Below are positions 1-25,936 of a stretch of DNA of 48,683 nucleotides, piece after piece. The DNA is from an uncultured Clostridia bacterium. Its GTDB lineage: Bacteria > Bacillota > Clostridia > Christensenellales > Borkfalkiaceae. The notes under the pieces are model-generated. The model saw nothing but the letters and a program-made list of their open reading frames with translations, made no database searches and was not told where the DNA came from. The position numbers and the translations under genes are program-made. The stretch spans positions 1-48,683 of the forward strand of contig CANQQM010000003.1 in NCBI GenBank assembly GCA_947626005.1, written 5' to 3'. The stretch's first letter is position 1. Each line of letters starts with the position of its first letter.

Positions 1-591
1 CTTGTGCGCACTCACCGAGTAGAGGTCGATCTCCTTCGGAAGGCGGAAGGGAATTTTTCCGAACGCCTGCACGCCGTCGCTGTGGAAGAGGGTGCGGGGA
101 TTTTTCGCCTTGACCGCCTTCGCAAGCGCCGCAACGTCGTTCACGGCGCCCGTTTCGTTGTTGACATGGACGACGGAGACGAGCGACGTCTTTTCGTCGA
201 CGAGGGAAAGAAGGGCGTCGGAGTCGACGCTCCCGTCCCTATTAAGGGGCGCAAAGCGGGGTTCGACCCCCCTGTTTTTGAGTTCGTTGAAGCTCCGAAA
301 GACGGCGGCGTGCTCCCCCGCCGTCGTGACGGCGTTCCCCCGCCGCGCCGCGCTGAATACGGCTTGGTTGTCTGCCTCCGTCCCTCCCGAAGTAAAGATG
401 AGGGAGAAATTCTCCCCGTCCGCGACAAGGGAACAGAGCCCCTGCCGCGCCTTCTTCAAGAGACTTTGCGCGGAAAATCCTCCGCTGTATTTGGCGGAGG
501 GATTGAAGAAGATCTCCTGCGTTTCCCGTTGTGCCCGCGCGAACGCCTCTTCGTTCGGCTTGGTCGTGGCGGCGTTGTCGAGATAGATCAT
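1..591 (-). CDS. Cysteine desulfurase (NifS/IscS-like), 3' end cut by window
   Basis: PLP-dependent class V aminotransferase that takes sulfur from L-cysteine for Fe-S cluster or tRNA thiolation. The minus-strand frame begins ATG-ATC-TAT-CTC and reads MIYLDNAATTKPNEEA, the classic N-terminus of the family. It continues with SGGTEADNQAV (cofactor phosphate region), GEHAAV and HVNNETGAV, and reaches SAHK exactly at the window edge. That lysine is the expected PLP-binding residue. About 197 codons are visible, roughly half of the usual 380-400. The start overlaps the stop of the upstream membrane protein gene as ATGA, which implies translational coupling at the end of the arginine operon. The exact subfamily (NifS, IscS or SufS) cannot be decided from this half. 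Confidence 0.93.
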   Translation of the reverse strand, partial: MIYLDNAATTKPNEEAFARAQRETQEIFFNPSAKYSGGFSAQSLLKKARQGLCSLVADGENFSLIFTSGGTEADNQAVFSAARRGNAVTTAGEHAAVFRSFNELKNRGVEPRFAPLNRDGSVDSDALLSLVDEKTSLVSVVHVNNETGAVNDVAALAKAVKAKNPRTLFHSDGVQAFGKIPFRLPKEIDLYSVSAHK

Positions 592-1208
592 TTCTGCTCC
601 AGCTTGGTCCTGCCCGCCGCGAGAACGAGATACTCGAGCAGCATCCGCCGACATTCGAGAATGTAGATCATCTTGGCGATGGACGTCGAATACACGATGT
701 AGATGAATTCCTTCCCCTCGATCGGTTCACGGTTCGAGGTGCATTTTTTGGGGCGCTTCCCGTCGAGGCCGCGGCAGGCGCGTTCGTAGGCGTCGCTCTC
801 CACCCAACCGATCTGGAGGATGCTGTCCGCCTTGAGCGTCGTGAGATATTTGCGCTTTTTTCCGTTGATGACCTTGGTGATGCGCAGTTCGTCCTCGACG
901 AAAACATAGTCGTAGCTCACGTTGAAGCGGTTTTTGAGGAACCAGAATATGAGTCCCACTCCGAGGAAGATCGCGATCATGCCGAACCACTGCACGAAGG
1001 CAAAGATGCGGGCGAAGGTGTAGACCGTCCCGTCCTCCGCGACCGTGGAGTCGAGCACGTTGACGACATAGGTGAAGGAGAAGGAGGCGATGAACGCCCC
1101 GATGACAAAGCAGATGACCGCCAAGATAAAGAATACGCGGTAATATTTTTCCTCCGTCTTGCTCCGCGCCGAGGTGGCGCTCTCCTCATAAAAACCGTCG
1201 CGGACCAT
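588..1208 (-). CDS. Two-TM membrane protein, unknown function
   Basis: A 206-residue protein I do not recognise. It has a short charged N-terminus, two hydrophobic segments at about residues 24-48 and 66-91, and then a soluble C-terminal part of about 110 residues rich in beta-prone stretches and basic residues. The arrangement resembles small bacterial membrane proteins with a PH-like tail, but this is only an impression. Its ATG overlaps the carB-dapF stop by one base (TGATG), and its TGA overlaps the desulfurase start, so it is translated as part of the arg-car operon. A second small protein with a similar layout lies at 12952-13398. No catalytic motif is visible. Confidence 0.8.
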   Translation of the reverse strand: MVRDGFYEESATSARSKTEEKYYRVFFILAVICFVIGAFIASFSFTYVVNVLDSTVAEDGTVYTFARIFAFVQWFGMIAIFLGVGLIFWFLKNRFNVSYDYVFVEDELRITKVINGKKRKYLTTLKADSILQIGWVESDAYERACRGLDGKRPKKCTSNREPIEGKEFIYIVYSTSIAKMIYILECRRMLLEYLVLAAGRTKLEQK

Positions 1209-4200
1209 CAGAATTCCACCGTCCCTTCATAGATTTTTTCGACGTTCCCCGTCAGCGTCACCGTACCGTCGAGGTGATAGCGCACGATGAGGTCTCCCCC
1301 GCGGAGTTTTACGGTGATATCCGTATCTGCGCGGCAATAGCCGTTGATAACGCTCGCGACCGCGGCGGCCGCCGCCCCCGTTCCGCAGGCGTAGGTCTCC
1401 CCGTTCCCCCGCTCCCAAACGCGCATTTTGACCGTGCTTTCGTTGACGACGCGCACGAATTCGACGTTTGTCTTTCCGGGGAAATATTCGCTCTCCTCGA
1501 TCTTGGGCCCGACGACGCCGACGGGCACGTCGTCCACCTTGTCGCAGAAGATGACGCAGTGCGGGTTGCCGAGATTGACGAGGGTGACTTTATACGTCTC
1601 CTCTCCGATGCGCATGGGCTTTCCGACGATGCGGTCCCCCTTCCAGACGGACGGGATCTTCTCGCCGCGGAGTTCCGCGACGCCGAGTTCGACGGTCGCC
1701 GAAGTGACGACGCCGCCGAAGCAATACACCTTGACCGTCTTGATGCCGCTCATCGTCTCGATGGTCATGACTTCCTTCTTCGCGATGCCCGACTCATAGA
1801 GATATTTGGCGACGCAGCGGATCGCGTTGCCCGCCATCAGCCCCTCCGAGCCGTCCTGATTGAAGATGCGCATGCGCGCATCGGCGACCGAAGAGCGTTC
1901 GATGAGCACGATCCCGTCCCCGCCGATGCCATAGTGGCGGTCGACGAAGTTGATCGCAAGCGATTCGGGGCAAGGGATCTGCCCGTCGAGGTTTTCGAAG
2001 TAGATATAGTCGTTCCCGCAGGACTGCATCTTGAGGAAGTGCAGCTCCGTCTTTTTGGTGCGGAGGCGGTTGATGTCGACAAGTTCGGTGTTGTATTCGG
2101 TGAATTTGCTTGCGATGATGTCGCAGAGCGCGTTCGCCGTGTCGAGCGACGTCAAGACGGTGATGCCGAGAAGGATCGCATGATGGTGAAGTTCGATGTA
2201 GTCGGCAATGGAATCGACGTCCGTCTTTCCCGTATAGATGATGTAATCGATCTTCCCGTCGTCCATGAGCTTGCACACCTGTTTGGTGGCTTTGAGCCGT
2301 TCGACGACGGTGACCTCGACGCCGAGGTCGGAGATGACTTTCGCCGTCCCCGCCGTCGCGTACAGGTTGCAGCCGAGGTCGGCGAACTTCTTCGCGATGG
2401 AGACGAGTTCGAACTTGTCCTGATCGTTGACGGTGAAATACACGCCGACGGGCTTTTGCGGCGTCGGATGGCACATTTTGAACCCCGCCGAGACAAGGCC
2501 CTTGAAGAGCGCCTCCTCGATCGTCTTGCCGATGCCGAGCACCTCCCCCGTCGACTTCATCTCGGGGCCGAGCTGGGAGTTGACGTCGTTGAGTTTTTCG
2601 AAGGAGAAAACGGGCACTTTGACGGCGACGTAGGGAGAATTGGGATAGAGCCCCGTCCCGTAGCCGAGCTTTTTGAGCTTCGCGCCCGCCATGATCTTGG
2701 TGGCGAGCTCCACCATCGGCACTCCCGTCACCTTGGAGATATACGGGATGGTGCGCGAGGCACGCGGATTGACCTCGATGACGTAAAGTTCGTTGCGGTA
2801 GATGAGATACTGGATGTTAATGAGCCCCTTCGTCTTGAGCTCGAGGGCAAGCTGGGTGGAGACCTCCACGATGCGCCCGAGCATCGCGTCGGTCAGGCGG
2901 TAAGGCGGATAGACGGCGATGGAGTCGCCCGAATGCACGCCCGCGCGCTCGACGTGCTGCATGATCCCGGGGATGAGTACGTCCACCCCGTCGGAAATGG
3001 CGTCGACCTCGAGTTCGCTCCCCATGAGGTATTTGTCGCACAGCACGGGGTTTTCGATGTGCTGGGCGAGAATGACGTCCATATAGCGGGAGATGTCGTT
3101 CTCGGTGAAGGCGATGGTCATGTTCTGCCCGCCGATGACATAGGAAGGACGGAGAAGCACGGGATAGCCGAGCTGTTCGGCGGCGCGGATCGCCTCCTCC
3201 TTCGTCATGACGGTGAGCCCCTTCGGACGGGCGATGTGGTAGCGCTCGAGAAGTTCGTCGAAGCGTTCGCGGTCCTCGGCGATGTCCACGCTGTCCGCGC
3301 TCGTGCCGAGGATGCGGACGCCCGCCTTTGCGAGATAGCCGCACAGCTTGATCGCCGTCTGGCCGCCGAAGGTGATGACGACCCCGTACGGCTTTTCGAC
3401 GTCGATGACGTTCTGAACGTCCTCGGGCGTCAGCGATTCGAAGTACAGCCTGTCCGCCGTGTCGAAGTCGGTCGAGACGGTCTCGGGGTTGTTGTTGATG
3501 ATGATGACCTCGTAGCCGAGCTCCTTGAGCGTCCACACGCAGTGCACCGAGGAGTAGTCGAATTCGATCCCCTGCCCGATGCGGATGGGCCCCGACCCGA
3601 TGACGATGACCCGACGCTTTTTGCTCTTCTCGACGAAGGGCTTTGCCTCGTCGTGGGCAAGGTCGTCGTAGGTCGAATAGAAATAGGGCGTGACCGCGGC
3701 GAACTCGGCGGCGCAGGTGTCGACCATTTTGAACGCCGCCCGACGGTGCGCCGGGAGTTTTTCGCCCGAGAAACGCGCAAGCGCGGCGTCGGTATAGCCG
3801 AGCCGCTTGCCCTCCGCGTATTGCTTCCGCGTGAGCTTCTTCCCCGCGATCGACGCCTCGAAGCGGACGAGGTTTTCGAGCTTATACAAAAACCACTCGT
3901 CGATCTTCGTGACGCTGTAGATCTCCCCGACGGAGATCCCGACTTTAAGGGCGGCGTACACCGCGAAGAGGCGTTCGTCTGTCTGTTTTGTGATTTCGAC
4001 CGCGAGCTGTTCGCGGTTCATCCCCTTGAATTTGGGGTGATTGAGGGTGTCGAGGGAAATTTCCGCCCCGCGCACCGCCTTCATGATCGCCTGCTCGAAG
4101 GAGGAGCCGATCGCCATGACCTCCCCCGTCGCCTTCATTCTCGACCCGAGCGCACGGCCCGCGTACAGGAATTTGTCGAAGGGCCACTTGGGGAGCTTGA

Positions 4201-5263
4201 CGACGACGTAGTCGAGGGTGGGTTCGAAGCAGGCGAAGGTCTTGCCCGTGACGTCGTTTTTGATCTCGTCGAGGGTGTAGCCGAGCGCGATCTTCGTCGA
4301 GACCTTTGCGATGGGATAGCCCGTCGCCTTACTTGCAAGCGCCGAGGAGCGCGACACGCGCGGATTGACCTCGATGACCGAATATTCGAAGCTGTCGGGA
4401 TAGAGGGCGAACTGGCAGTTGCATCCCCCTTCGATGCCGAGCTCGGTGATGATGTCGAGGGAGGCGGTGCGGAGCATCTGATACTCCTTGTCGGAGAGGG
4501 TGACGGCGGGCGCGATGACGATGGAATCGCCCGTGTGCACGCCGACGGGGTCGAAGTTCTCCATCGAACAGACGGTGAGCACGTTCCCCGCGCCGTCGCG
4601 CAAGACTTCGAATTCGATCTCCTTCCAGCCGCCGATGTACTTCTCGATGAGGACCTGCGTGATGGGAGAGAGCATGAGCCCGTTGTGCGCGATGAGGCGG
4701 AGCTCCTCTTCGTCTCTTGCGACGCCGCCGCCCGCGCCGCCGAGCGTGAACGCCGGGCGCACGATGACGGGATAGCCGAGCGCTTCCGCGATCGCGACGC
4801 ATTCGTCCTCCGTGTAGGCGACGTCGGAGGGAACGATGGGCTGGCCGATCTTCTTCATCGTCTCTTTGAAGAGCTCCCGATCCTCGGCGCGGTCGATGGC
4901 GTCGAGCTTGGTCCCGATGAGTTTGACCCCCCACTCGTCCAAAAATCCGCTCTTTGCGAGCTTACAGCCCATCGTGAGCCCCGTCTGCCCGCCGAGGGAG
5001 GCGAGAAGGGAGTCCGGCCGCTCCTTGATGATGATGCGCTTCAAGCTGTCCTCGGTGAGCGGCTCGAGGTAAATTTCGTCGGCAAGCATCTTGTCCGTCA
5101 TGATCGTGGCAGGGTTGGAATTGCAGAGAACGACGTTGACGCCCGCATCTTTGAGGACGCGGCACGCCTGCGCGCCCGCATAGTCGAATTCCGCCGCCTG
5201 TCCGATCACGATGGGACCGGATCCGATTACCAATACTTTTTTGATGTCGCTTCTCTTCGGCAT
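1208..5263 (-). CDS. carB: Carbamoyl-phosphate synthase large subunit fused to a DapF-like domain
   Basis: The first ~1065 residues are a complete CarB. They contain the N-terminal ATP-grasp half (VIGSGPIVIGQAAEFDYAG, RPAFTLGGAGGG), the oligomerisation region, the second ATP-grasp half (VIGSGPIRIGQGIEFDYSS, RPSYVIGGQNM, EVNPRASR) and the C-terminal MGS-like allosteric domain. CarB makes carbamoyl phosphate from ammonia supplied by CarA, bicarbonate and two ATP. Without a stop the frame continues from about residue 1073 into a full diaminopimelate epimerase fold of ~275 residues: QSCGNDYIYFE, MRIFNQDGSEG, NPHCVIF, ERGNGETYACGTGA. The second catalytic Cys (about residue 1293) is present. The first is Ala (residue 1144, MAGNAIRC instead of MCGNGIRC), so normal two-base epimerisation is doubtful. 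The start is set by AAGGTG 8 bases upstream of ATG; carA ends 34 bases before. A separate intact dapF lies at 25091-25936. Confidence 0.95.
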   Translation of the reverse strand: MPKRSDIKKVLVIGSGPIVIGQAAEFDYAGAQACRVLKDAGVNVVLCNSNPATIMTDKMLADEIYLEPLTEDSLKRIIIKERPDSLLASLGGQTGLTMGCKLAKSGFLDEWGVKLIGTKLDAIDRAEDRELFKETMKKIGQPIVPSDVAYTEDECVAIAEALGYPVIVRPAFTLGGAGGGVARDEEELRLIAHNGLMLSPITQVLIEKYIGGWKEIEFEVLRDGAGNVLTVCSMENFDPVGVHTGDSIVIAPAVTLSDKEYQMLRTASLDIITELGIEGGCNCQFALYPDSFEYSVIEVNPRVSRSSALASKATGYPIAKVSTKIALGYTLDEIKNDVTGKTFACFEPTLDYVVVKLPKWPFDKFLYAGRALGSRMKATGEVMAIGSSFEQAIMKAVRGAEISLDTLNHPKFKGMNREQLAVEITKQTDERLFAVYAALKVGISVGEIYSVTKIDEWFLYKLENLVRFEASIAGKKLTRKQYAEGKRLGYTDAALARFSGEKLPAHRRAAFKMVDTCAAEFAAVTPYFYSTYDDLAHDEAKPFVEKSKKRRVIVIGSGPIRIGQGIEFDYSSVHCVWTLKELGYEVIIINNNPETVSTDFDTADRLYFESLTPEDVQNVIDVEKPYGVVITFGGQTAIKLCGYLAKAGVRILGTSADSVDIAEDRERFDELLERYHIARPKGLTVMTKEEAIRAAEQLGYPVLLRPSYVIGGQNMTIAFTENDISRYMDVILAQHIENPVLCDKYLMGSELEVDAISDGVDVLIPGIMQHVERAGVHSGDSIAVYPPYRLTDAMLGRIVEVSTQLALELKTKGLINIQYLIYRNELYVIEVNPRASRTIPYISKVTGVPMVELATKIMAGAKLKKLGYGTGLYPNSPYVAVKVPVFSFEKLNDVNSQLGPEMKSTGEVLGIGKTIEEALFKGLVSAGFKMCHPTPQKPVGVYFTVNDQDKFELVSIAKKFADLGCNLYATAGTAKVISDLGVEVTVVERLKATKQVCKLMDDGKIDYIIYTGKTDVDSIADYIELHHHAILLGITVLTSLDTANALCDIIASKFTEYNTELVDINRLRTKKTELHFLKMQSCGNDYIYFENLDGQIPCPESLAINFVDRHYGIGGDGIVLIERSSVADARMRIFNQDGSEGLMAGNAIRCVAKYLYESGIAKKEVMTIETMSGIKTVKVYCFGGVVTSATVELGVAELRGEKIPSVWKGDRIVGKPMRIGEETYKVTLVNLGNPHCVIFCDKVDDVPVGVVGPKIEESEYFPGKTNVEFVRVVNESTVKMRVWERGNGETYACGTGAAAAAVASVINGYCRADTDITVKLRGGDLIVRYHLDGTVTLTGNVEKIYEGTVEF

Positions 5264-5297
5264 ATCTGCACCTTGATGGATTCGGATGACGCCCGCA

Positions 5298-6353
5298 TTA
5301 CCCTTTCATGCGGGCGAGAAAAGTATCGAAAAGGAAGTTCGCGTCGTGCGGGCCCGAGCACGCCTCGGGGTGGAACTGCACGGTGAACGCGTTGAGCTCG
5401 GGATAGTCGACCCCTTCGCAGGTGCCGTCGTTCCCGTTGACGAAGGAGAGCGTTCCGCACTTTAAGCAATCGCTCACGACTTCGTAGCCGTGGTTTTGGG
5501 AGGAGATGAATACCCGCCCCGTTTTGACTTCTTTGACGGGCTGGTTGGAGCCGCGGTGGCCGTACTTCATCTTGCGCGTCTGCCCGCCCATCGCGAGCGC
5601 GAAGAGCTGATGTCCGAGGCAGATGCCGAAGATGGGCTTCTTCCCCGCGAGCTTTGCGAGATTTGCGATGATCTCGGGGTTGTCGGCGGGATCGCCGGGG
5701 CCGTTCGAGAGCATGATGCCGTCGGGGCGGAGCGCAAGCGTCTCCTCCGCCGTATAAAAGGCGGGGACGACGGTCACGCGGCAGCCGCGGCGGACAAGTT
5801 CCCGTTCGATGTTGCGCTTGGCGCCGAAGTCGTATAAGACGACGTGCGGCCCCCCTTCCTTCCCCGAAGCGTAGGGCGCTTTGACGGTCGTCGCGCCGAC
5901 GGCGCCCGTCACGCGGTAGGCGGCAAGCGTTTCGAAGTCGTGAAAAGGACGGAAGGTGATCGCCGCGTTCATGACCCCCGCCTCCCGCACGATGCGGGTG
6001 AGTTCGCGGGTGTCGATGCCGTACACGGCGGGGATCCCCTGCCCTTTGAGATAATTTTCGAGCGTCGTCTCACTGCGGAAATTGGAGGGCGCGTCGCACT
6101 TCTCCCGCACGATATAGGCGCTCACCCAACACTTTTCGCTCTCGAAGTCGGCGGGGATCACCCCGTAGTTGCCGATGAGGGGAAAGGTCTGCGTGACGAT
6201 CTGTCCGAAGTAGCTCGGATCGGTGAGCGTCTCGAGATAGCCCGTCATGCCCGTCGTAAAGACGAGCTCGCCGACCGTCTCCCGTTCCGCGCCGAAGGAG
6301 ACCCCCTCGAACACCTTTCCGTTTTGCAGCGTGACGTAGATTTTTTTCTCCAT
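5298..6353 (-). CDS. carA: Carbamoyl-phosphate synthase small subunit (glutaminase)
   Basis: A 351-residue glutamine amidotransferase subunit that hydrolyses glutamine and channels ammonia to CarB for arginine and pyrimidine synthesis. The N-terminal CPSase small-chain domain (FTTGMTGYLETLTDPSY) is followed by a class I GATase domain with the nucleophile in GICLGHQ (Cys about 245) and the His/Glu pair in FHPEACSGP near the C-terminus. The start MEKKIYVTLQNG was chosen because longer upstream frames read into argF; GAGGAAGG lies directly before the ATG, a short spacing. The gene starts 10 bases after argF and precedes carB. Length is normal for the family. Confidence 0.97.
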   Translation of the reverse strand: MEKKIYVTLQNGKVFEGVSFGAERETVGELVFTTGMTGYLETLTDPSYFGQIVTQTFPLIGNYGVIPADFESEKCWVSAYIVREKCDAPSNFRSETTLENYLKGQGIPAVYGIDTRELTRIVREAGVMNAAITFRPFHDFETLAAYRVTGAVGATTVKAPYASGKEGGPHVVLYDFGAKRNIERELVRRGCRVTVVPAFYTAEETLALRPDGIMLSNGPGDPADNPEIIANLAKLAGKKPIFGICLGHQLFALAMGGQTRKMKYGHRGSNQPVKEVKTGRVFISSQNHGYEVVSDCLKCGTLSFVNGNDGTCEGVDYPELNAFTVQFHPEACSGPHDANFLFDTFLARMKG

Positions 6354-6363
6354 ACCTTCCTCT

Positions 6364-7269
6364 TCAGCGAAGGACCTTGCACAGGACCGCTTTCTGGGCG
6401 TGCAGACGGTTCTCCGCCTCGTCGAAGATCTCGTTCGCGTGCGCCTCGAACACCTCTGCCGTGATCTCTTCGCCGCGGTGGGCGGGAAGGCAGTGGAGAA
6501 CGATCGCATCCTTTTTGGCCGCGTGCATCACGGCGTCGTCTACGCAGAAGCCGCGAAACGCCGCCGCCCGCTTTTCCCGCTCTTCCTCCTGCCCCATCGA
6601 CGCCCAGACGTCGGTATAGACGACGTCGGCGTCCGAAGCCGCCTCTTCGGGGCTCTCCGTCTCGAAGTATTCCCCTTCCTTCTTCGCCCATTCGACGAGC
6701 TCCGCGTCGGGGGAATAGCCCTTCGGACAGGCGATCGAGAACTTCATGCCCATGCGGACGGCGCCGACGATGAGCGAATTCGCCATGTTGTTCCCGTCGC
6801 CGACAAAGCAGAGCTTTAAGCCCTTAAAGGAGCCCTTGTACTCGCGGATCGTCATGAGGTCCGCAAGCACCTGACAGGGATGGCAATAGTCGGTGAGCCC
6901 GTTGATGACGGGGATCGTCCCGTAGCGGGCAAGCGATTCCACTTCCTCCTGATCGAAGGTGCGGATCATGATCGCGTCGAGCATGCGGGAGAGCACCCTT
7001 GCGGTGTCCTGAACGGGTTCGCCCCGCCCGATCTGAAGGTCTCTCGAGGAGAGGAAGAGCGGACGGCCGCCGAGGTCGGACATGCCGACCTCGAAGGAGA
7101 CGCGGGTGCGCGTCGACGACTTTTGGAAGATCATGCCGAGCGTCTTTCCCTTGAGATAGCCCGTCTGGTCCACCCCGCTCTTGCGCTCGTATTTGAGCTG
7201 ATCGGCGAGGTTGAGGATGGAGAGGATCTCTTCGCGGGAGAGATCGCGGAGTTTGAGAAGATGTTTCAT
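6364..7269 (-). CDS. argF: Ornithine carbamoyltransferase
   Basis: Transfers the carbamoyl group from carbamoyl phosphate to ornithine to give citrulline. The 301-residue sequence has the carbamoyl-phosphate motif SSTRTR (residues 51-56), the HPCQ motif in DYCHPCQVLAD, and the ornithine-loop motif HCLPAHRGEEI near the C-terminus. Its ATG overlaps the argD stop (ATGA), and carA follows after 10 bases, so the enzyme and its carbamoyl-phosphate source are made from one message. The biosynthetic (ArgF) role is inferred from this operon rather than the catabolic one. Confidence 0.97.
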   Translation of the reverse strand: MKHLLKLRDLSREEILSILNLADQLKYERKSGVDQTGYLKGKTLGMIFQKSSTRTRVSFEVGMSDLGGRPLFLSSRDLQIGRGEPVQDTARVLSRMLDAIMIRTFDQEEVESLARYGTIPVINGLTDYCHPCQVLADLMTIREYKGSFKGLKLCFVGDGNNMANSLIVGAVRMGMKFSIACPKGYSPDAELVEWAKKEGEYFETESPEEAASDADVVYTDVWASMGQEEEREKRAAAFRGFCVDDAVMHAAKKDAIVLHCLPAHRGEEITAEVFEAHANEIFDEAENRLHAQKAVLCKVLR

Positions 7270-8429
7270 TTGAGTACCTCTTTGAGGATCGAAAGACCCT
7301 CGTCCATTTCAAGTTTTGTGATCGTGAGCGGAGGCACGAGGCGGAGTTTGTCGTGGGCGGTGAGGACGAGAAGCCCCCGCTCGAGGCACTGCCGCGCGAC
7401 CTCCTTGCTGTTCTTTTCGACGGAGAGCCCGATCATGAGCCCGATGCCGCTCACCCCTTTCACGCCGTCGAACTGCGCAAGTTTGGTGCGAAGATAGTCC
7501 GCTTTTGCCCGAACTTCGAGGAGAAGCGCCTCGTCGATGCGGGAAACGATATTGACCGCCGCCGCACAGGAGACGGGGTTCCCGCCGAACGTCGAGCCGT
7601 GGTCGCCCGCCGAAAAGACGTCTGCCGTCTTGCCGAAGAAGAGGCAGGCGCCGATGGGAAGTCCGCCCGCAAGCCCCTTCGCCGTCGTCACGAGGTCGGG
7701 GTGCAATCCGTAGTGCTCGTAGGCGAAGTATTTCCCCGTCCTGCCGTTCCCCGACTGCACTTCGTCGCAGATGAGGAGGATATCCCGCTTCTCGCATTCG
7801 CGGGCAAGGGCTCGGGTGAACGGGAGAGAGAGCTCGTTGACGCCGCCCTCCCCCTGCACGCATTCGATGATAATTGCGGCGACCCGCTCGTCGAGGGCCT
7901 TATTCAGCCCTTCCTCGGTCGGCGGGAAGGAGGCGACTTCGGGGACGAAGGGTCCGAAGTCGCGGTGAAATTCCTCCTGCCCCGTCGCCGTGAGGGTGAA
8001 GAGCGTCCTGCCGTGAAAGCTCCCCTCGAGGGAGAGGATGCGCTTCCGCCCCTCCCCGTATTTGACGGCGGCGTACTTTCTTGCCGCCTTGAAGGCGCAT
8101 TCGTTGGCCTCCGCGCCAGAATTTCCGAAGAAAACGCGGCTCGCGCCCGTCTTTTTGCAGAGGAGCTCGGCAAGTTTCGCCTGCGGCTCCTGATAGTAGT
8201 AGTTGCTGACGTGCTGGATGCGGTCGAGCTGGGCGATGACCGCCCTCTTCCACTCCTCGTCGCCCGCGCCGAACGCGTTGACGGCGATGCCCGCACCGAA
8301 GTCGATGTATTCCTTTCCGTCCGTCCCGATGAGGGTCGCGCCCTTGCCGCCCTCGAAGGCGACGGGATAGCGCGCATACGTCTTGGCGACGTATTCTCCG
8401 TCGAGCGCCATGATCTTGCTTAGTTCCAT
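7266..8429 (-). CDS. argD: Acetylornithine aminotransferase
   Basis: PLP enzyme of class III (387 residues) that converts N-acetylglutamate semialdehyde to N-acetylornithine; family members can also act in the succinyl-DAP pathway. It shows GNSGAEANECA (cofactor phosphate site), SFHGRT, ICDEVQSGNGRTG, and the PLP lysine in TTAKGLAGGLPIG at about residue 245. GGAGGAAC stands just ahead of the ATG. The gene is separated from argB by 57 bases that hold an intrinsic terminator hairpin, so argD and everything downstream may be made at a lower level than argJ-argB. Confidence 0.96.
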   Translation of the reverse strand: MELSKIMALDGEYVAKTYARYPVAFEGGKGATLIGTDGKEYIDFGAGIAVNAFGAGDEEWKRAVIAQLDRIQHVSNYYYQEPQAKLAELLCKKTGASRVFFGNSGAEANECAFKAARKYAAVKYGEGRKRILSLEGSFHGRTLFTLTATGQEEFHRDFGPFVPEVASFPPTEEGLNKALDERVAAIIIECVQGEGGVNELSLPFTRALARECEKRDILLICDEVQSGNGRTGKYFAYEHYGLHPDLVTTAKGLAGGLPIGACLFFGKTADVFSAGDHGSTFGGNPVSCAAAVNIVSRIDEALLLEVRAKADYLRTKLAQFDGVKGVSGIGLMIGLSVEKNSKEVARQCLERGLLVLTAHDKLRLVPPLTITKLEMDEGLSILKEVLK

Positions 8430-8466: not shown

Positions 8467-8491
8467 AAAAAAACTGATTTGAAAAATCAGT
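8467..8491 (-). terminator. Intrinsic terminator or attenuator between argB and argD
   Basis: On the minus strand an 8-bp stem ACTGATTT/AAATCAGT with loop TTC is followed at once by a run of T. The argB stop codon TGA lies inside the 5' arm, so ribosomes terminating at argB would mask the stem. I see no new promoter between it and argD, which suggests partial read-through control within the operon. Confidence 0.7.
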
Positions 8492-9344
8492 CTCCTTTCA
8501 CAAACATTGTCCCGAGGCCTTCGTCCGAGAGCAATTCCAATAAAATCGAATGTTTCACCCTTCCGTCGGTGATGAACACGCGGTTCACGCCGTTGCGGAT
8601 GGCGTCTTTACAGCACTGCACCTTGGGGATCATTCCCCCCGAGATGACGCCCGCCTTCATGAGCGACGGGATGTCGGAGACGTACACCTTGCGGATGAGG
8701 CTCTCCTCGTCCTCCCGATCTTCGAGCAGCCCGCGGGTGTCCGTCATGAGGATAAGGCTCTCCGCCTTGAGCGCTCCCGCGACGGCGGACGCCGCCGTGT
8801 CGGCGTTGACGTTGTAGATGTTGCCCTCGAGGTCCCCTCCGACGGAGGAAATGACGGGAAGATACCCCTTGTCGAGGCAATCGAGGATGATCCCCGTGTT
8901 CACCGTCTCGATCTTTCCGACGAAGCCGAGCTCCTCGGACTGCTTGCTGCAGAGGATCATATTGGCGTCGATCCCCGAAAGGCCGACCGACTGCGCCCCG
9001 TACGCCGAGAGCATATGCACAAGCGACTTGTTCACCTTCCCCGCAAGCACCATGCGGACGACCTCGGCGGTCGCCTCGTCGGTGTAGCGGAGACCGTTGA
9101 CAAAGCGGGATTCGATCCCCATCGATTTGAGCGTCTGGGAAATTTCGGGTCCCCCGCCGTGAACGAGCACGACGCGGATCCCGACGAAGCTCAAAAGGGT
9201 GAGATCGCGCATGACCGACTCCTTGAGTTCGTCGCCGAGCATCGCGCTCCCGCCGTACTTTATGACGAGGATCTTGTTCTGATATTTGCGAATATAGGGC
9301 ATCGCTTCAAGAAGAAACTCCGCCTGCTGTTCCTTTGCTGTCAC
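8487..9344 (-). CDS. argB: Acetylglutamate kinase
   Basis: Phosphorylates N-acetylglutamate in the second step of arginine synthesis. The amino-acid-kinase family signatures are present in the 285-residue protein: KYGGSAM at residues 29-35, VLVHGGGPEISQ, SRFVNGLRYTD, and AVAGALKAESLILMTD. It begins with GTG (a GGAGA element lies about 10 bases upstream), and this GTG overlaps the argJ TGA as GTGA. Feedback inhibition by arginine is common in the family; the N-terminal helix tied to that property seems present as AEFLLEAMPYIRKYQNK, so inhibition is possible but not proven. Confidence 0.97.
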   Translation of the reverse strand: MTAKEQQAEFLLEAMPYIRKYQNKILVIKYGGSAMLGDELKESVMRDLTLLSFVGIRVVLVHGGGPEISQTLKSMGIESRFVNGLRYTDEATAEVVRMVLAGKVNKSLVHMLSAYGAQSVGLSGIDANMILCSKQSEELGFVGKIETVNTGIILDCLDKGYLPVISSVGGDLEGNIYNVNADTAASAVAGALKAESLILMTDTRGLLEDREDEESLIRKVYVSDIPSLMKAGVISGGMIPKVQCCKDAIRNGVNRVFITDGRVKHSILLELLSDEGLGTMFVKGD

Positions 9345-10564
9345 GTTCTGTAATCTCCGTTGATCTTCACATAGTCATAGGTGAGGTCGCATCCCCACGC
9401 CGTAGCCCGCGCGGAGCCGTCATGGAGACGCACGTCGATCGAGATCTCCTTCTCGGAGAGCACCGATTTTGCAAATTCCTCCGAAAAAGGCACGTTGACC
9501 CCCGAGCGGTAGACGGGTACGACCCCCGACTTCGAACGGAAGTCGACGTCGATCCCTTTGGGATCGAGACGCGCCCCCGAGTAGCCGAGCGCACAGAGCA
9601 CTCTTCCGCCGTTCGCGTCCGCCCCGAAGATCATCGCCTTGACGAGGTTGGAGCAGACGACCGCCTTCGCGGCGAGATGGGCGTCCTTCGACGTCCGCGC
9701 CCCCTTCACGTTGCATTCGATGAGCTTGGTCGCTCCTTCGCCGTCGGCGGCAAGCATGCGGCAGAGCTCGGTCGTCACCTTTTTGAGCGCCCTGCGGAAG
9801 GCGGTGAAAGAGGGCCCTTCCGAGACGATCTCGGCGTTTCCCGCAAGTCCGTTTGCGAGGATGCAGAAGGTGTCGTTCGTCGAGGTGTCCGAGTCGACGC
9901 TCAGCATGTTGACGGAGTTGCGGATGTCCTGCGCAAGCGCCTTTTGGAGCATTTGGGAGGAAATTGCGACGTCCGTCGTCACAAAGAGAAGGAGGGTCGC
10001 CATGTTGGGGCAGATCATCCCCACTCCCTTTGCGATCGCGCCGATACGGCAGGTCTTGCCGTCGAGTTCGAATTCGTACGCCGTCTCCTTAAGGACGGTG
10101 TCCGTCGTCATGATGGCCTCTGCGGCGTGGCGGCTTCCCGACCAATCGGAGGTGAGGTCGTCGACGGCCATGGGCATCCCGTAGGCGAAGGGCTCGACGG
10201 AAAGTTTGAGCCCGATGACCCCCGTCGAGGCGATGATGACGTCGTTTGCGGGGATCCCCGCATACCGTTCGACGAGGGCGCAGGTCGCCTCGGCGATCTC
10301 TTCCCCGTCGGGATTGCAGGTATTCGCGTTGCCGCTGTTGACGACGACCGCCTGCGCATAGCCGTCCTCGAGGTGGCGCTTCGTCACGAGGATGGGCGCA
10401 CCCTTCACGAGGTTGGTCGTGTACACCCCCGCCGCGTGGCAGCGGACGTCGCTCACGATGAGGGCGAGGTCGCGTTTTATTTTGTTTTTGCGGATCCCGC
10501 AGTGCACACCGCCCGCGCGGAATCCCTTGGGGGCGCAAACGCCGCCCGAAATCTTGGAAATCAT
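9341..10564 (-). CDS. argJ: Bifunctional ornithine acetyltransferase / N-acetylglutamate synthase
   Basis: Recycles the acetyl group from N-acetylornithine to glutamate and may also use acetyl-CoA, so no separate argA or argE is required. The 407-residue precursor carries the autocleavage site in MICPNMATLLLF. By homology it is cut between Ala189 and Thr190, and Thr190 becomes the nucleophile of the beta chain. The N-terminus MISKISGGVCAPKGF is typical. It has its own promoter inside the end of argC, and its stop overlaps the argB start. Whether it is mono- or bifunctional cannot be told from sequence alone. Confidence 0.96.
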   Translation of the reverse strand: MISKISGGVCAPKGFRAGGVHCGIRKNKIKRDLALIVSDVRCHAAGVYTTNLVKGAPILVTKRHLEDGYAQAVVVNSGNANTCNPDGEEIAEATCALVERYAGIPANDVIIASTGVIGLKLSVEPFAYGMPMAVDDLTSDWSGSRHAAEAIMTTDTVLKETAYEFELDGKTCRIGAIAKGVGMICPNMATLLLFVTTDVAISSQMLQKALAQDIRNSVNMLSVDSDTSTNDTFCILANGLAGNAEIVSEGPSFTAFRRALKKVTTELCRMLAADGEGATKLIECNVKGARTSKDAHLAAKAVVCSNLVKAMIFGADANGGRVLCALGYSGARLDPKGIDVDFRSKSGVVPVYRSGVNVPFSEEFAKSVLSEKEISIDVRLHDGSARATAWGCDLTYDYVKINGDYRT

Positions 10565-10588: not shown

Positions 10589-10617
10589 ATTATATCATAA
10601 AGAAATGCTTTCGTCAA
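10589..10617 (-). promoter_or_regulatory. Sigma-A promoter for argJ, inside the 3' end of argC
   Basis: Minus-strand TTGACG at 10612-10617 and a perfect TATAAT at 10589-10594, spaced by 17 bases. The argC stop TGA lies immediately before the -10 box. The bases after the -10 (TATAATAGCTAAG) are identical to those after the argG -10, which hints at common control of the two promoters. Confidence 0.85.
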
Positions 10618-11521
10618 GCCCGCACGCAAGATTCATATTTTGAATTGCGGCGCCCGAGGCCCCTTTCCCGAGATTGTCGAAACGGGCGGCAAGGGTGATG
10701 CGCTCATCGTTCCCGCCGACGAAGATCTCGAGCTCGTTGGTGCCGCGGAAGCGGTTTGCGGAGAGGTAGCCCTCCTCCGAATTTTGCGTAACATGTATGA
10801 ACCTCTGCGTGGCATAGTACTCTGCAAAAAACGCAAATAGGTCCTCCACCCCCATCTTTTTCGCCAAGAGACGCCCGAAGAGCGGCACGGTGACGCACAT
10901 GCCGCAGTCGAAGTCGCCGACGGCGGGAAGGAAGGCGGGCGGGGAAGAAAGGCCTCCGATCGCCGTCATTTCCTTGAGGTGTTTATGCATCTGCCCGAGG
11001 CCGTAGACGCGGGGCGCGTCGAGAAGGGAGCTCCGCCCCTCCTCTTCGTAGGCGGCGATCATCTTCTTCCCTCCCCCCGTGTAGCCCGTGAGGGATGCGG
11101 CGACGAAGGGATAGTCGGGAGCGGCGATGCCGCACTTCACAAGCGGATAGACAAGCGCCAGAAACCCGCTTGCGTGGCACCCGGGATTGGCGATGCGCTT
11201 GCTTTTTTTAATTGCCTCGCGAAAGGAGGCGTCGAGTTCGGGGAAGCCGTAGGCCCACCCCTTCTCGGTGCGGTGCGCCGTCGAGGCGTCGATCACGACC
11301 GTATGCTCGTTCGAGAGCAGCCCCACCGCTTCCCGCGCCGCGTCGTCGGGCAGGCAGAGAAAGACGACGTCGCTCGAGTTGATGGCCTCCCGCCGCGCCT
11401 TCAAGGACTTCCTCTCCTCCTCGGGAAGGGTGATGAGCGAAACGTCCGTGCGGGCAAGAAGGCGGCCGCGGACGCCGAGCCCCGTCGTCCCCGCGCTCCC
11501 GTCGATAAATACATTCAGCAT
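10595..11521 (-). CDS. argC: N-acetyl-gamma-glutamyl-phosphate reductase, short type
   Basis: NADPH-dependent reductase of N-acetylglutamyl phosphate. At 308 residues it belongs to the short class of ArgC. It has the nucleotide-binding start MLNVFIDGSAGTTGLG, the catalytic Cys115 in IANPGCHASG, and the GYTGGGKKMI loop. No clear Shine-Dalgarno sequence precedes the ATG. The 40 bases after argG instead form a GC-rich hairpin (GGGCTCCGC/GCGGGGCCC), so its translation may rely on read-through from argG. Its last codons overlap the argJ promoter. Confidence 0.95.
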   Translation of the reverse strand: MLNVFIDGSAGTTGLGVRGRLLARTDVSLITLPEEERKSLKARREAINSSDVVFLCLPDDAAREAVGLLSNEHTVVIDASTAHRTEKGWAYGFPELDASFREAIKKSKRIANPGCHASGFLALVYPLVKCGIAAPDYPFVAASLTGYTGGGKKMIAAYEEEGRSSLLDAPRVYGLGQMHKHLKEMTAIGGLSSPPAFLPAVGDFDCGMCVTVPLFGRLLAKKMGVEDLFAFFAEYYATQRFIHVTQNSEEGYLSANRFRGTNELEIFVGGNDERITLAARFDNLGKGASGAAIQNMNLACGLDESISL

Positions 11522-11561: not shown

Positions 11562-12791
11562 TTAATCCTTGCGTTTTTGGTCGAGCAGCGCCTTGACCTT
11601 GATAGGCAGCCCGAAGAGGTTGATAAAGCCCTCCGAATCCTTCTGCGAATAGGCGCCGCCGTCGTCGGAGAAGGTCGCGATGTCCTCGCTGTAGAGGGAA
11701 TAGGGCGACGTCACGCCGGCGTTGATGATGTTCCCCTTGTAGATGCACAGCTTCACATCGCCCGTGACGCATTCCTGCGTCTTGGTGACGAAGGCGGAAA
11801 GCGCCTCGCGAAGGGGGGTGAACCACTGGCCGTCGTACACCATTTCGCCGAATTTGACGGCGACGAGCTGCTTATAGTGCTGGGTCGCCTTGTCGAGGCA
11901 GATCGTCTCGAGGATGCGGTGCGCCTCATAGAGGATCGCGCCGCCCGGGGTCTCGTACACGCCGCGGGACTTCATGCCGACGAGGCGGTTCTCGACGATG
12001 TCCGCAAGCCCCACGCCGTTCCTGCCGCCGATCTCGTTGAGTTTCTCGATGAGGGCGACGGCGTCGTACGAAGTGCCGTCGATGGCGGTCGGGATCCCCT
12101 TCTCGAAGTGAAGGGTGAGGTATTCGGGCGCGTCGGGCGCACGGAAGGGAGAGACGCCGAGTTCGAGGAAGCCCTCCTTGTCGTACTGCGGCTCGTTTGC
12201 GGGATCCTCGAGGTCAAGCCCCTCATGCGAGAGGTGCCAGAGGTTTTTATCCTTCGAATAGTTGGTCTCGCGGTTGATGCGGAGCGGGATGTTGTGCGCC
12301 TCGGCGTACTCGATCTCCTCCTCGCGCGATTTGATGTTCCAGATGCGCCACGGGGCGATGATGGTCATTTCGGGTGCGAACGCCTTGATCGACAGTTCGA
12401 AGCGCACCTGATCGTTCCCCTTGCCCGTGCAGCCGTGGCAGATGGCGTCTGCCCCCTCTTTCTTGGCGATCTCGACGATCCCCTTCGCGATGACGGGGCG
12501 GGCAAACGACGTTCCGAGAAGATATTTTTCTTCGTAGACCGCCCCCGCCTGCATGGTCGGGAAGATGTAATCTTCGACGAATTCCTTCTTGAGGTCGAGC
12601 ACATAGAGCTTGCTTGCGCCCGTCTTTTTCGCCTTCTCTTCGAGCCCGTCGAGCTCGGTCCCCTGCCCGACGTCGCCCGAGACCGCGATGACCTCGCAAT
12701 TGTCGTAATTTTCCTTGAGCCAAGGGATGATGATGGATGTGTCGAGCCCGCCGGAGTAGGCGAGGACGACCTTGCGAATGGGTTTTTTCAT
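11562..12791 (-). CDS. argG: Argininosuccinate synthase
   Basis: Condenses citrulline and aspartate with ATP to argininosuccinate. The 409-residue protein has the ATP pyrophosphatase P-loop ([10 protein letters not shown], residues 10-19), DVGQG, and the citrulline/aspartate motif [13 protein letters not shown]. It is the first gene of the arginine operon; its own promoter lies 33-61 bases upstream and AAGGACGG serves as ribosome site. The partner argH, which would finish arginine synthesis, is not found in this window. Confidence 0.97.
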
Positions 12792-22278: not shown

Positions 22279-23481
22279 TTATTTGCGATCATATTGCGCG
22301 AAGAACTTTGCAAGACGGTCGCATGCTTCACGCGTATTCTCCGCCGTGCCGAATGCGGTCAGGCGGAAGTACCCTTCGCCGTTCTTCCCGAAGCCGCTGC
22401 CGGGGGTGCCGACGACGTTTGCCTCCTCGAGAAGGCGGTCGAAAAAGGTCCAGCTGTCGGTGTTTCCGGGGCATTTCATCCAAAGATAAGGCGAATTTTT
22501 TCCGCCCGTATAGGGGACGCCCGCCCCGTCGAGGCAAGCCGCGATGCGAAGAGCGTTTTCGCGGTAATAGGCAAGATTTTCGCGGATCTGGCGTTCGCCC
22601 TCCTCCGAAAAGACTGCCGCCGCCCCCATCTGCGAGACGTAGCTGACGCCGTTGAATTTGGTGGATTGGCGTCTCGCCCAAAGGCGGTTTAAGGAAGTCC
22701 CCTCCCGAACAAGCGCCTCGGGCACGACGGTATATCCGCAGCGCACGCCCGTAAAGCCCGCCGTCTTGGAATAGGAACACACTTCGATCGCGCATTCCTT
22801 CGCCCCTTCGATCTCGTAGATGCTGCGGGGAAGCGCCTTGTCGTCGATGAAATATTCGTAGGCGGCGTCGTAGAGGATGACGGCGTTCTCGCGGCGGGCG
22901 TAGTCGACCCACGCCTTGAGCCCCGCACGGTCGTACGCGGCGCCCGTCGGATTGTTGGGAGAGCAAATATAGATGAGGTCTGCCTTCTCCTTCGGGGGAG
23001 GGGGCAGAAAGCCGTTTTTCTCGTTGGCGTCCGCATAGAGGATGCGCCGCCCCGCCATGATGTTCGTGTCGACGTAGACGGGATAGACGGGATCGGGCAC
23101 GAGGACGGTGTTCTCCGTCGAGAAGATGTCGAGGAGGTTGCCAAGGTCGGATTTCGCGCCGTCCGAGATGAAGAGCTCCCCCTTTTCGAGGGTCACCCCC
23201 TTCCTTGCATAGCTGCCGAGGATGGAATCGAGCAGGGCGTCGTAGGCGTAGCAAGTCTGGTCGGGGCCGTAGCCGCGGAAGGTCTCGACGCGGGAAAGGT
23301 CGTCGACCGCGCGGTGCATCGCCTCGATGACGACGGGCGCAAGCGGCCGCGTGACGTCCCCGATGGAGAGTTTGATGACCTTCCTTTCGGGGTGCGCCTT
23401 GGTGTAGGCGGCGTATTTCGCCCCCACCGTCGCAAAGAGGTAGGAATCTTTGAGTTCGAGAAAGTGCCGATTGATCTTCAT
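22279..23481 (-). CDS. dapL: LL-diaminopimelate aminotransferase
   Basis: Class I/II PLP aminotransferase of 400 residues that converts tetrahydrodipicolinate directly to LL-diaminopimelate, bypassing the acylated steps. Typical are the start MKINRHFLELKDSYLF, KLSIGDVTRPLAP, CSPNNPTGAAYDRAGL, the PLP lysine region CSYSKTAGFTGVRCGYTV, and KNSPYLWMKCPG. With dapF two genes upstream, the operon supplies meso-DAP for lysine and peptidoglycan. It follows pyrG by 4 bases. Confidence 0.97.
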   Translation of the reverse strand: MKINRHFLELKDSYLFATVGAKYAAYTKAHPERKVIKLSIGDVTRPLAPVVIEAMHRAVDDLSRVETFRGYGPDQTCYAYDALLDSILGSYARKGVTLEKGELFISDGAKSDLGNLLDIFSTENTVLVPDPVYPVYVDTNIMAGRRILYADANEKNGFLPPPPKEKADLIYICSPNNPTGAAYDRAGLKAWVDYARRENAVILYDAAYEYFIDDKALPRSIYEIEGAKECAIEVCSYSKTAGFTGVRCGYTVVPEALVREGTSLNRLWARRQSTKFNGVSYVSQMGAAAVFSEEGERQIRENLAYYRENALRIAACLDGAGVPYTGGKNSPYLWMKCPGNTDSWTFFDRLLEEANVVGTPGSGFGKNGEGYFRLTAFGTAENTREACDRLAKFFAQYDRK

Positions 23482-23485
23482 AGTC

Positions 23486-25081
23486 TTACTTCCGATGCCG
23501 AACCGCGGCGCGGATGAATTCGCGGAAGAGCGGATGGGCGCAGTTGGGACGGGATTTGAATTCGGGGTGGAACTGGACGCCCACGAAGAAGTCGTTGCTG
23601 TCGAGTTCGACCGCCTCGCAGAGGTGCCCGTCGGGCGAAGTGCCTGCGATCGTCATCCCTCCCTTTTCGAACGCTTCGCGGTAGTCGTTGTTGAACTCGA
23701 AGCGGTGGCGGTGGCGTTCCTGCACGAGTTCCTGTCCGTACGCCTTTTTGAGGCGGTCGCCGAGGATGAGGCAGGGATAGGCGCCGAGGCGCATCGTCCC
23801 CCCCATCTTGACGCCGTACTGGTCGGGCATGAGGTCGATGACGGAGTGTTCCCCTTCGGGGACGAACTCCGAGGAGTTGGCGTCCTCGATGCCGAGCACG
23901 TTGCGGGCGAACTCGATGACGGCGACCTGCATGCCGAGGCAGATGCCGAGGTAGGGAATGTTGCGTTCGCGGGCGTAGCGGCAGGCCTCCACCTTCCCCT
24001 CGATGCCGCGGATGCCGAATCCGCCCGGGATGAGGACGCCGTCGACGCCGCAAAGGACCTCCTCCACGTTGGCTTTGGTGAGTTTTTCGGTGTCGACCCA
24101 GCGGATCTCCACCTTTGCGTCCGTCTCGTACCCGCCGTGCGCAAGCGCTTCGGCGATCGAGAGGTAGGCGTCGTGGAGCTGAACGTACTTGCCGCAGAGG
24201 GCGATCGTCACCGTCTTGCTCCGTGCATGGATGCGGGCAAGCATGTCCTCCCACTCCGAGGTGTCGATCTCTTTGGGATCGAGGCGGAGGATCCTGCATA
24301 CCGTCGAGGAGAAGTTGCTGCGCTCGAGCATCATGGGCGCCTCGTAGAGGACGGGCACGGTGAGGTTCTCGATACAGCACTCGGGGGCGACGTTGCAGAA
24401 CATCGCGATCTTCTCCCGTATGGAGGCGGGCATGGGTTCGTCGACGCGGGCGACGATGATGTCGGGGGAGATCCCCATCCCCTGCAATTCCTTGACGGAG
24501 TGCTGGGTGGGTTTGCTCTTGAATTCGCAGGAGCCCGAAATGTAGGGCACGAGGGTCACATGGATGAAGCAGCAGTTCTCGCGGCCGACTTCTCGGGCGA
24601 CCTGACGGATGGCTTCGAGGAAGGGCTGGCTCTCGATGTCGCCCGTCGTCCCGCCGATCTCGGTGATGACGATGTCGGCGTCCGTCGCCTTTCCCACTTT
24701 ATAGATGAACGATTTGATCTCGTTGGTGACGTGCGGAATGACCTGAACGGTCTGCCCGAGGTACTCCCCCGCACGCTCCTTGTTGAGGACGTTCCAATAC
24801 ACCTTCCCCGTCGTGAGGTTGGAGAATTGGTTGAGGTTTTCGTCGATGAAGCGCTCGTAGTGGCCGAGGTCGAGGTCGGTCTCCGCGCCGTCCTCGGTGA
24901 CGAACACTTCGCCGTGCTGGAAGGGACTCATCGTCCCCGGGTCGATGTTGATATAGGGGTCGAGTTTTTGCGAGGCGACCTTGTAGCCGCGCATTTTGAG
25001 GAGCCGTCCGAGCGACGCCGCCGTGATGCCCTTCCCGAGCCCCGAAACGACACCCCCCGTTACAAAGATGTATTTCGTCAT
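23486..25081 (-). CDS. pyrG: CTP synthase
   Basis: Amidates UTP to CTP with glutamine and ATP. The 531-residue enzyme has the synthetase domain ([40 protein letters not shown]) and a C-terminal class I glutamine amidotransferase domain with its nucleophile in GICLGMQ and the His/Glu motif in FHPEFKSRP. The family is usually feedback-controlled by CTP. It lies between dapF and dapL with gaps of less than 10 bases. Confidence 0.98.
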
Positions 25082-25090
25082 AGTAACCTC

Positions 25091-25936
25091 TTATCTCCCG
25101 ATTTCCACTTCTCCCGTGAAGGCGACCTCCGCGGGGCCGCGCATGAGAACGGTCGTCCCGTCGTAGACGATCGTAAGGTCCCCGCCCCGAAGGTGCACGA
25201 GGATGGGTTCCCCTTCCTTGCAGTAACCGTTCAGAATACTTGCGACGGCGGCGGCGCATGCGCCCGTGCCGCACGCCCAAGTCTCTCCGCTCCCCCGCTC
25301 CCAGACGCGCATCGAAAGCTCGTTTTTCCCTTCGACGCGGATAAATTCGGTATTTACCCGTTCGGGGAAGGCGGGAGAATGCTCGAAAGCGGGGCCGATA
25401 TGCTCTAAATCGAGCGCGGCGGGGTCCTCCGTAAAGACGACGCAGTGCGGATTGCCCATCGAGACGCATGTGACCTTGTATTCTCTTCCCATGACGGTGA
25501 GCGGAACGCCGACCGCGCGGGAGCCCGAAAAGCGTGCGGGGATCCGTTCGGGGACAAGTTCGGGCGCACCCATATCCACTTCCGCGGCAACAACTTCCCC
25601 GCCCCGAAGTTCGAGTTTGAGCGTCTTGACGCCCGAGAGCGTCTCGACGGTGAGAACGTCCTTACCTATCCCCTTGAAGTCGTGCAGGAATTTTCCGACG
25701 CAGCGGATGCCGTTCCCGCACATCTTCCCTTCGCTGCCGTCGGCGTTGAACATGCGCATTCTGCCGTCGGCGACGTCGCTCCTTTCGACGAGGATGATCC
25801 CGTCTCCCCCCACCGAAAAACGGCGCTCGGAGAGGCGGACGGCAAGCGCCGACGGGTCGGAAAAGGACCTGTCGAACGCGTCGAAATAGAGATAGTCGTT
25901 GCCGATGCCGTGCATCTTGACGAAGGGAACTTTCAT
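25091..25936 (-). CDS. dapF: Diaminopimelate epimerase, intact copy
   Basis: Interconverts LL- and meso-diaminopimelate without cofactor by a two-cysteine mechanism. In this 281-residue protein both catalytic cysteines are present: Cys73 in KMCGNGIRC and Cys222 in ETWACGTGA. The other conserved motifs MHGIGNDYLY, GNPHCVVF, VNTEFIRVE and WERGSGETW are present. It is the natural partner of dapL two genes downstream, and the true epimerase of this window, in contrast to the DapF-like domain fused to CarB. Confidence 0.97.
   Translation of the reverse strand: MKVPFVKMHGIGNDYLYFDAFDRSFSDPSALAVRLSERRFSVGGDGIILVERSDVADGRMRMFNADGSEGKMCGNGIRCVGKFLHDFKGIGKDVLTVETLSGVKTLKLELRGGEVVAAEVDMGAPELVPERIPARFSGSRAVGVPLTVMGREYKVTCVSMGNPHCVVFTEDPAALDLEHIGPAFEHSPAFPERVNTEFIRVEGKNELSMRVWERGSGETWACGTGACAAAVASILNGYCKEGEPILVHLRGGDLTIVYDGTTVLMRGPAEVAFTGEVEIGR

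Follow-up and report, generated by a model that had tools for sequence, protein, structure and literature searches.

On the minus strand of the window (the whole 48,683-nucleotide stretch of DNA that was analyzed), a single gene encodes a carbamoyl-phosphate synthase large subunit (CarB) that continues into a protein fold of the diaminopimelate (DAP) epimerase, DapF. The coordinates of this gene, its parts, and its neighbors are collected in Table 1.

Table 1. Features of the fusion gene and its surroundings in the window
Feature	Position	Strand	Basis
carB::dapF fusion gene, 1351 aa	1208..5263	-	one open reading frame without internal stop
CarB part, residues 1-1060	2084..5263	-	TIGR01369 and PRK05294; boundaries by codon reading
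MGS-like effector domain of CarB, residues 952-1038	2150..2410	-	PF02142
Linker, 13 residues, 1061-1073	2045..2083	-	codon reading
DapF-type tail, residues 1074-1351 and stop codon	1208..2044	-	TIGR00652
Ala1144, codon GCG, at first catalytic Cys position	1832..1834	-	codon reading
Cys1293, second catalytic Cys, retained	1385..1387	-	codon reading
carA	5298..6353	-	PF00988, PF00117; start codon picked within longer ORF 5298-6509
argF-like ornithine carbamoyltransferase	6364..7269	-	PF00185, PF02729
argD-like aminotransferase	7266..8429	-	PF00202
argB-like kinase	8487..9344	-	PF00696
argJ	9341..10564	-	PF01960
argC-like semialdehyde dehydrogenase	10595..11521	-	PF22698, PF01118
argG	11562..12791	-	PF20979, PF00764
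dapL, LL-diaminopimelate aminotransferase, next after pyrG	22279..23481	-	TIGR03542
pyrG, CTP synthase, next after separate dapF	23486..25081	-	TIGR00337
Separate dapF, both catalytic Cys present	25091..25936	-	profile match and residue reading

Both NCBIfam models of CarB were matched above their curated cut-offs (TIGR01369 over residues 2-1048 and PRK05294 over residues 1-1053). The TIGR01369 match was full-length, with 1391.5 bits against a cut-off of 1027, and the CarB part is complete, as both halves and the MGS domain were matched. The DapF model TIGR00652 was also matched over its full length (residues 1075-1349) with 252.2 bits, compared to a curated cut-off of 114.65. That CarB is joined to a DapF fold in one gene is certain. 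An earlier note, made from the sequence alone, had described the joining of CarB to a full DapF fold in one stop-free frame of 1351 codons, an Ala where the first catalytic Cys would be, with the second Cys and the substrate residues kept, and an intact two-Cys DapF elsewhere in the window; the model matches and codon readings bore out all three statements.

By codon reading, the tail retains Asn1084, Asn1135, Gly1145, Asn1146, Asn1233, His1235, Asn1266, Glu1284, and Arg1285, as well as Gly1294 and Thr1295 next to Cys1293. The residues for DAP recognition, as listed in excerpts of PMC5296763, are all present. The first catalytic Cys of the DapF signature (PROSITE PDOC01029, as quoted in excerpts of PMC8225329) is absent, and Ala1144 occupies its place. 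The AlphaFold2 model of the tail, calculated with an alignment of 53 sequences, was confident (mean pLDDT 94.1, pTM 0.91), and a phmmer search of the PDB with the tail matched 17 distinct sequences, of which 2otn was the best. Opposite the entire fusion gene, the plus strand has an antiparallel open frame of 1370 aa (1274-5386), which very probably arises from codon usage.

The carA gene is located directly upstream of the fusion gene. Because argG, argC, argJ, argB, argD, argF, and carA all lie upstream on the same strand, the arginine cluster ends with the fusion. Directly after the fusion gene, a 206-aa ORF (588-1208, minus strand) had no Pfam or NCBIfam match; a relative of this ORF adjoins the fusion in 12 of the 66 named loci that span 12 kb or more. 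The promoter/terminator scan and the Rfam search of the window yielded no result relevant to the fusion. DapB and PyrB are encoded in the genome to which the window belongs, and no match to DAP dehydrogenase was found in this genome, which is estimated to be 90.75% complete.

When the tail was used as a protein query, 4999 proteins with E ≤0.001 were obtained among 7991 scored candidates, and CarB domains together with PF01678 were present in all of the 120 best of those 4999. Genomes were also drawn at the level of the order, the class, and the phylum; the draws overlap, and all carrier counts are lower bounds. No more than two candidates per genome were scored in the whole-protein searches, so that the window's genome could harbor a second CarB. 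A stop-free frame through the DapF end was found in at least 90 of 297 genomes in the order-level draw (87 nearly full-length and three cut at the front by a contig end). The fusion was present in at least 44 of 393 genomes at the class level (one cut at residue 1315) and in at least 12 of 299 at the phylum level, and its range thus exceeds the class. Carriers among the best 80 loci included Oscillibacter ruminantium, Oscillibacter valericigenes, Gemmiger sp. An120, Candidatus Borkfalkia faecigallinarum, Candidatus Coproplasma avicola, and Ruminococcus MAGs. Confinement of the fusion to the window's genus was rejected by all three draws. An artefact of assembly or a frameshift, which the earlier note had entertained along with absence of the fusion from relatives, and a chance occurrence were excluded by stop-free fusions of the same length in many other genomes, among them the single-contig assemblies G068, G526, G897, and G920. 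In the few carriers whose annotation was inspected, the protein was named only “carbamoyl-phosphate synthase large subunit”; pathway reconstructions may therefore miss dapF in such genomes.

The state of the two catalytic Cys residues was typed in fused domains, with pieces shorter than about 180 residues excluded. Among the rows of the CarB tree (described below) that had a readable tail, 51 carried both Cys, 124 had lost the first, and two had lost only the second. The first Cys was replaced by Ala in 80 of the 124, by Gly in 24, by Ser in 19, and by Thr in one. Loss of the Cys as a companion of the fusion, which the earlier note had wanted to see checked for the Cys-to-Ala change, was therefore rejected: many relatives have a two-Cys fused domain, which is their sole DapF match. 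Two-Cys motifs in close homologues had been named there as grounds for refutation, and this condition is partly borne out, since such motifs do occur in relatives, although these belong to other families; within the window's genus, Cys was at the first position in none of 30 fused domains.

The complement of DapF proteins was scored in two samples of carrier genomes. In the first (121 genomes), a two-Cys fusion was the sole DapF match in 39 of 41 genomes; another DapF match was present in 66 of the 80 Cys-defective genomes, and DAP dehydrogenase in 12 of the other 14. The corresponding figures for the second sample (39 genomes) were 15 of 18, 15 of 21, and five of the remaining six. The combined sample of 159 genomes consisted of both samples minus one double; G336 (the genome of G269) and G338 (the genome of G260) were dropped as duplicates. 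G071, G215, and G657, in which the first Cys is present and the second lost, were scored as Cys-defective. The second DapF matches of G175 (a 62-residue contig-end fragment below the cut-off) and G339 (partial) were scored as another DapF, and 33 of the Cys-defective genomes with a further DapF match were left out of the DAP dehydrogenase search. Counted in this way, and bearing in mind that the carrier genomes are related and such co-occurrences are not independent trials, the two-Cys fusion was the sole DapF match in 54 of 59 genomes (another DapF in five of 59). Another DapF match was found in 80 of the 100 Cys-defective genomes, 17 had DAP dehydrogenase only, and three (G199, G278, and G657) had neither, i.e. 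no other detected route to meso-DAP. DapB was found in 30 of the 31 genomes tested. Tree contrasts between Cys state and the presence of another DapF numbered three independent ones on supported branches and six on all branches; averaged across 200 pairings of these three, another DapF accompanied Cys loss in 2.1 contrasts, the opposite held in 0.0, and there was no difference in 0.9, and with only three supported contrasts the significance of this association cannot be claimed.

Because the two-Cys fusion is the sole DapF match in most of its carriers, two-Cys fused domains very likely function as DAP epimerases. No DAP dehydrogenase accompanied the fusion in 29 of these 54 genomes, and the enzyme was present in the other 25; an alternative route alone thus does not bring about Cys loss. 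In L245 and L246 (from G071 and G215), the first Cys is present, the second position is Ser, there is no other DapF match, and DAP dehydrogenase is present; this pattern indicates that either Cys can be lost first.

The window's tail, by comparison with its homologues, very likely no longer serves as the epimerase of the cell. According to excerpts of PMC5296763, mutation of either catalytic Cys of Corynebacterium glutamicum DapF to Ala almost completely abolished activity, as did Ala mutations of the DAP contacts. Because these Cys-to-Ala mutants of a homologue are almost inactive, the tail has presumably lost its activity as well. The same observation argues against continued epimerization by the tail with some other residue or acid substituting for the first Cys. 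The three Cys-defective genomes without another detected route could be accommodated by such an enzyme, but they may be incomplete or may not need meso-DAP, and another route exists in 97 of the 100 Cys-defective genomes; we consider a persisting epimerase hardly credible. A general role of the tail as a partner subunit of a separate DapF is also unlikely, because in 17 Cys-defective genomes DAP dehydrogenase was found but no DapF match besides the fusion.

The history of the fusion was addressed using FastTree on the CarB part, tail excluded, with 201 rows. Fused rows formed essentially one clade (186 rows, support 89) with some unfused rows inside. A deep Cys-less clade (112 rows, support 100) was composed of 104 Cys-less fusions and eight rows that carry the label unfused, in two cases (L054 and L100) because a contig end truncates them. 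Two-Cys rows branch around the deep Cys-less clade, and smaller Cys-less groups emerge among the two-Cys rows. Seven changes on the CarB tree were needed to account for Cys versus no Cys in all fused rows, and six for both-Cys versus defective in the typed genomes. The order of events on this tree suggests that the fusion predates the loss of Cys. Of the unfused rows nested among fused ones, L260-L263 were well placed, and L269, L270, and L277 were on long branches with unsure placement. The nested unfused proteins stop in or near the linker, showing that the tail can be lost.

An unfused pyrG-carA-carB-dapF-dapL order was observed in two distant relatives, L218 and L219 (in the latter, one additional ORF separates pyrG and carA), and an order of this type may have been the source of the fusion. 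Among 23 distinct two-Cys loci that were examined (L132 and L292, a single locus, were entered once), pyrG was nearby in 16 and dapL in 11, and none of the arginine genes used as queries was near any of them. Among the 62 named Cys-less loci that span 12 kb or more, 41 had argF on the piece, many of the pieces being cut by contig ends. In G184, a Ser-type fusion occurs alongside a set of unfused carB, dapF, and dapL genes whose dapF encodes two Cys, and these constitute a natural pair for comparing fused and unfused forms. In a weakly resolved tree of the domain, 19 of 20 standalone DapF copies clustered (support 88) close to the two-Cys fusions; the separate dapF might be a gene that was set free from a fused one in the recent past.

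The effector site for UMP in the MGS domain was compared after transfer of its positions, by alignment, to E. coli numbering. Besides Thr977 and Lys993, the site includes other positions (e.g. 1015 and 1017). The roles of Thr977 and Lys993 are those given in excerpts of PMC6245113. The window has Arg989, Tyr1010, and Gly1012 where E. coli has Lys993, Asn1015, and Thr1017. Among rows retaining the first Cys, one UMP-site signature was common to 48 of 53, and Lys993 was present in 53 of 53. The smaller Cys-less groups had exactly that signature in 14 of 20 rows; Lys993 was found in only 14 of 104 rows of the deep Cys-less clade. In the deep clade, therefore, the missing Cys goes together with a missing UMP signature and, in many cases, with a place in an arginine cluster. 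At position 892 of the ornithine site, almost every row has Val whether or not the protein is fused, and the position is thus uninformative.

Selection on the tail was estimated by comparing the window to eight relatives. The dN/dS of the tail was 0.11-0.26 in seven of the eight comparisons (the other was saturated, and many dS values were high), and that of the CarB part was 0.03-0.16. Throughout the fusions, tail sequences have diverged more rapidly than CarB, and the difference is larger in Cys-less ones; at like CarB distance, the tail-to-CarB ratios were 3.43, 2.53, and 1.59 in Cys-less fusions against 2.26, 1.78, and 1.43. In the 124 Cys-less rows, pocket residues were retained as follows: Gly218 in 124, His159 and Asn64 in 123 each, Glu208 in 117, Cys217 in 116, Asn11 in 111, Arg209 in 107, and Asn190 in 104. 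All 12 pocket residues other than the first Cys were present in 79 of these 124 rows, compared to 51 of 51 two-Cys rows, and at least one was missing in 45. Over the 124 rows, whose summed CarB tree length is 18.4 changes per site, pocket sites averaged 4.6 changes versus 23.9 for all tail sites. They were slower than the average tail site (p 1.6e-5); compared to other sites that are conserved in two-Cys rows, no significant slowdown was found (p 0.19). Within the window's genus, the pocket was intact in 22 of 30 fused domains, differed at one to three residues in three, and was largely gone, Cys1293 included, in five that are still in frame and full-length. A sister genus of the same family (L045-L053 and kin) has shared pocket changes, in which Gly74 is replaced by Ala, Asn190 by Tyr or Phe, and Arg209 by Lys; these look as if the ligand had been altered or the pocket were failing. 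Taken together, the substitution patterns are consistent with a folded tail under selection whose ability to bind a DAP-like ligand could have survived in most lineages.

These data bear on what the Cys-less tail might do. A passenger in slow decay would have no current function, its frame persisting since truncation has not yet been fixed. The rapid divergence of the tail relative to CarB, especially in Cys-less rows, and the loss of the pocket in several lineages and of the domain in some are in keeping with such decay; the dN/dS far below 1 and the slow change of pocket sites speak against it, and it is possible but unlikely. The suggestion in the earlier note that the fused copy has another task stands insofar as a non-catalytic role is plausible; another racemase or a one-base enzyme is not favored because the DAP-recognition residues are retained. 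In the latter case, the one remaining Cys would act on an amino acid and catalyze either an elimination or a proton exchange. The persistence of Cys217 is compatible with that chemistry, and excerpts of PMC8142540 report elimination of chloroglutamate by a glutamate racemase in which Ser replaces one Cys. However, the elimination substrates known from those excerpts are made analogues, DAP has no leaving group, and no new neighboring enzyme hints at a product; a one-base enzyme is very improbable.

A purely structural tail would stabilize or assemble the synthase and would require the folded domain but no ligand. It would explain why the tail remains full-length and in frame even in the five members of the genus with much pocket loss, and it agrees with the confidently predicted fold and with the dimeric state and conserved interface of DapF proteins (excerpts of PMC5296763). 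Retention of the 12 other pocket residues in most Cys-less rows exceeds the needs of a bare scaffold, and CarB proteins without the tail exist. A sensor of an amino acid, which the earlier note had also put forward, is possible; the five of 30 genus domains with much pocket loss do not suit it. We give the structural tail and the sensor about equal weight, each being possible but less likely than not.

Our preferred reading is that the tail is the former epimerase of a bifunctional carbamoyl-phosphate synthase/DAP epimerase and is now non-catalytic, which we regard as probable. In an ancestor, a dapF adjoining carB would have become fused to it, and the fused domain would have acted as a DAP epimerase. 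In the window's lineage, the epimerase job would fall to the separate dapF and the fused domain would have lost its first catalytic Cys; the synthase, its UMP site altered, now ends an arginine cluster. The former epimerase would persist, folded and in frame, as a non-catalytic C-terminal tail that would bind DAP or a DAP-like amino acid without turnover, thereby modulating or stabilizing the synthase. The last element, ligand-dependent regulation by the tail, is put forward only tentatively. Against this reading are the nested tail-less CarB proteins: the tail is dispensable in some. Further points against it are the pocket losses in five domains of the genus and in 45 of the 124 Cys-less rows, the lack of a significant slowdown of pocket sites relative to other conserved sites, the three Cys-defective genomes with no other detected route, the 25 genomes that have DAP dehydrogenase beside a sole two-Cys fusion, and the small number of supported contrasts. 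A narrower proposal, that the Cys-less tail is a DAP sensor replacing the usual UMP site of the synthase in a clade of gut Clostridia, is doubtful. If it were true, DAP abundance would control how much carbamoyl phosphate goes to arginine and how much to pyrimidines, the pyrimidines concerned being those for UDP-linked wall precursors; any sensing of DAP by the tail would couple cell-wall and lysine synthesis to the supply of arginine and pyrimidines. Apart from regulation, the fusion spans two pathways, is widespread, and appears to supply the sole DAP epimerase in many gut bacteria, and the repeated loss of a catalytic residue with the domain kept provides a natural replicate series for the transition from enzyme to non-catalytic domain.

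No description of a CarB-DapF fusion was found in the open-licence PMC literature. With DapF (TIGR00652, PF01678), the window's tail shares the model match, the second Cys, and the DAP contacts; it is unlike DapF in having Ala for the first catalytic Cys and in being fused to CarB. The protein resembles CarB over the full length of the latter, including both halves and the MGS domain, and differs from the usual CarB in its additional C-terminal DapF-type domain and in the altered UMP-site positions of its clade. PddB and other DapF-related racemases, as presented in excerpts of PMC8225329, have the DapF-type fold in common with the tail; in PddB both Cys are present and the residues for the distal carboxylate are changed, whereas the tail lacks one Cys and has these residues unchanged. 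A parallel is offered by human CPS1, a synthase of the same family that, according to excerpts of PMC4655335, retains a glutaminase-like domain in which the catalytic Cys is replaced by Ser294. The CPS1 domain, however, is the ancestral glutaminase of the synthase, whereas the window's tail comes from an enzyme of the DAP pathway that is foreign to the synthase, and the catalytic residue of such tails was lost repeatedly.
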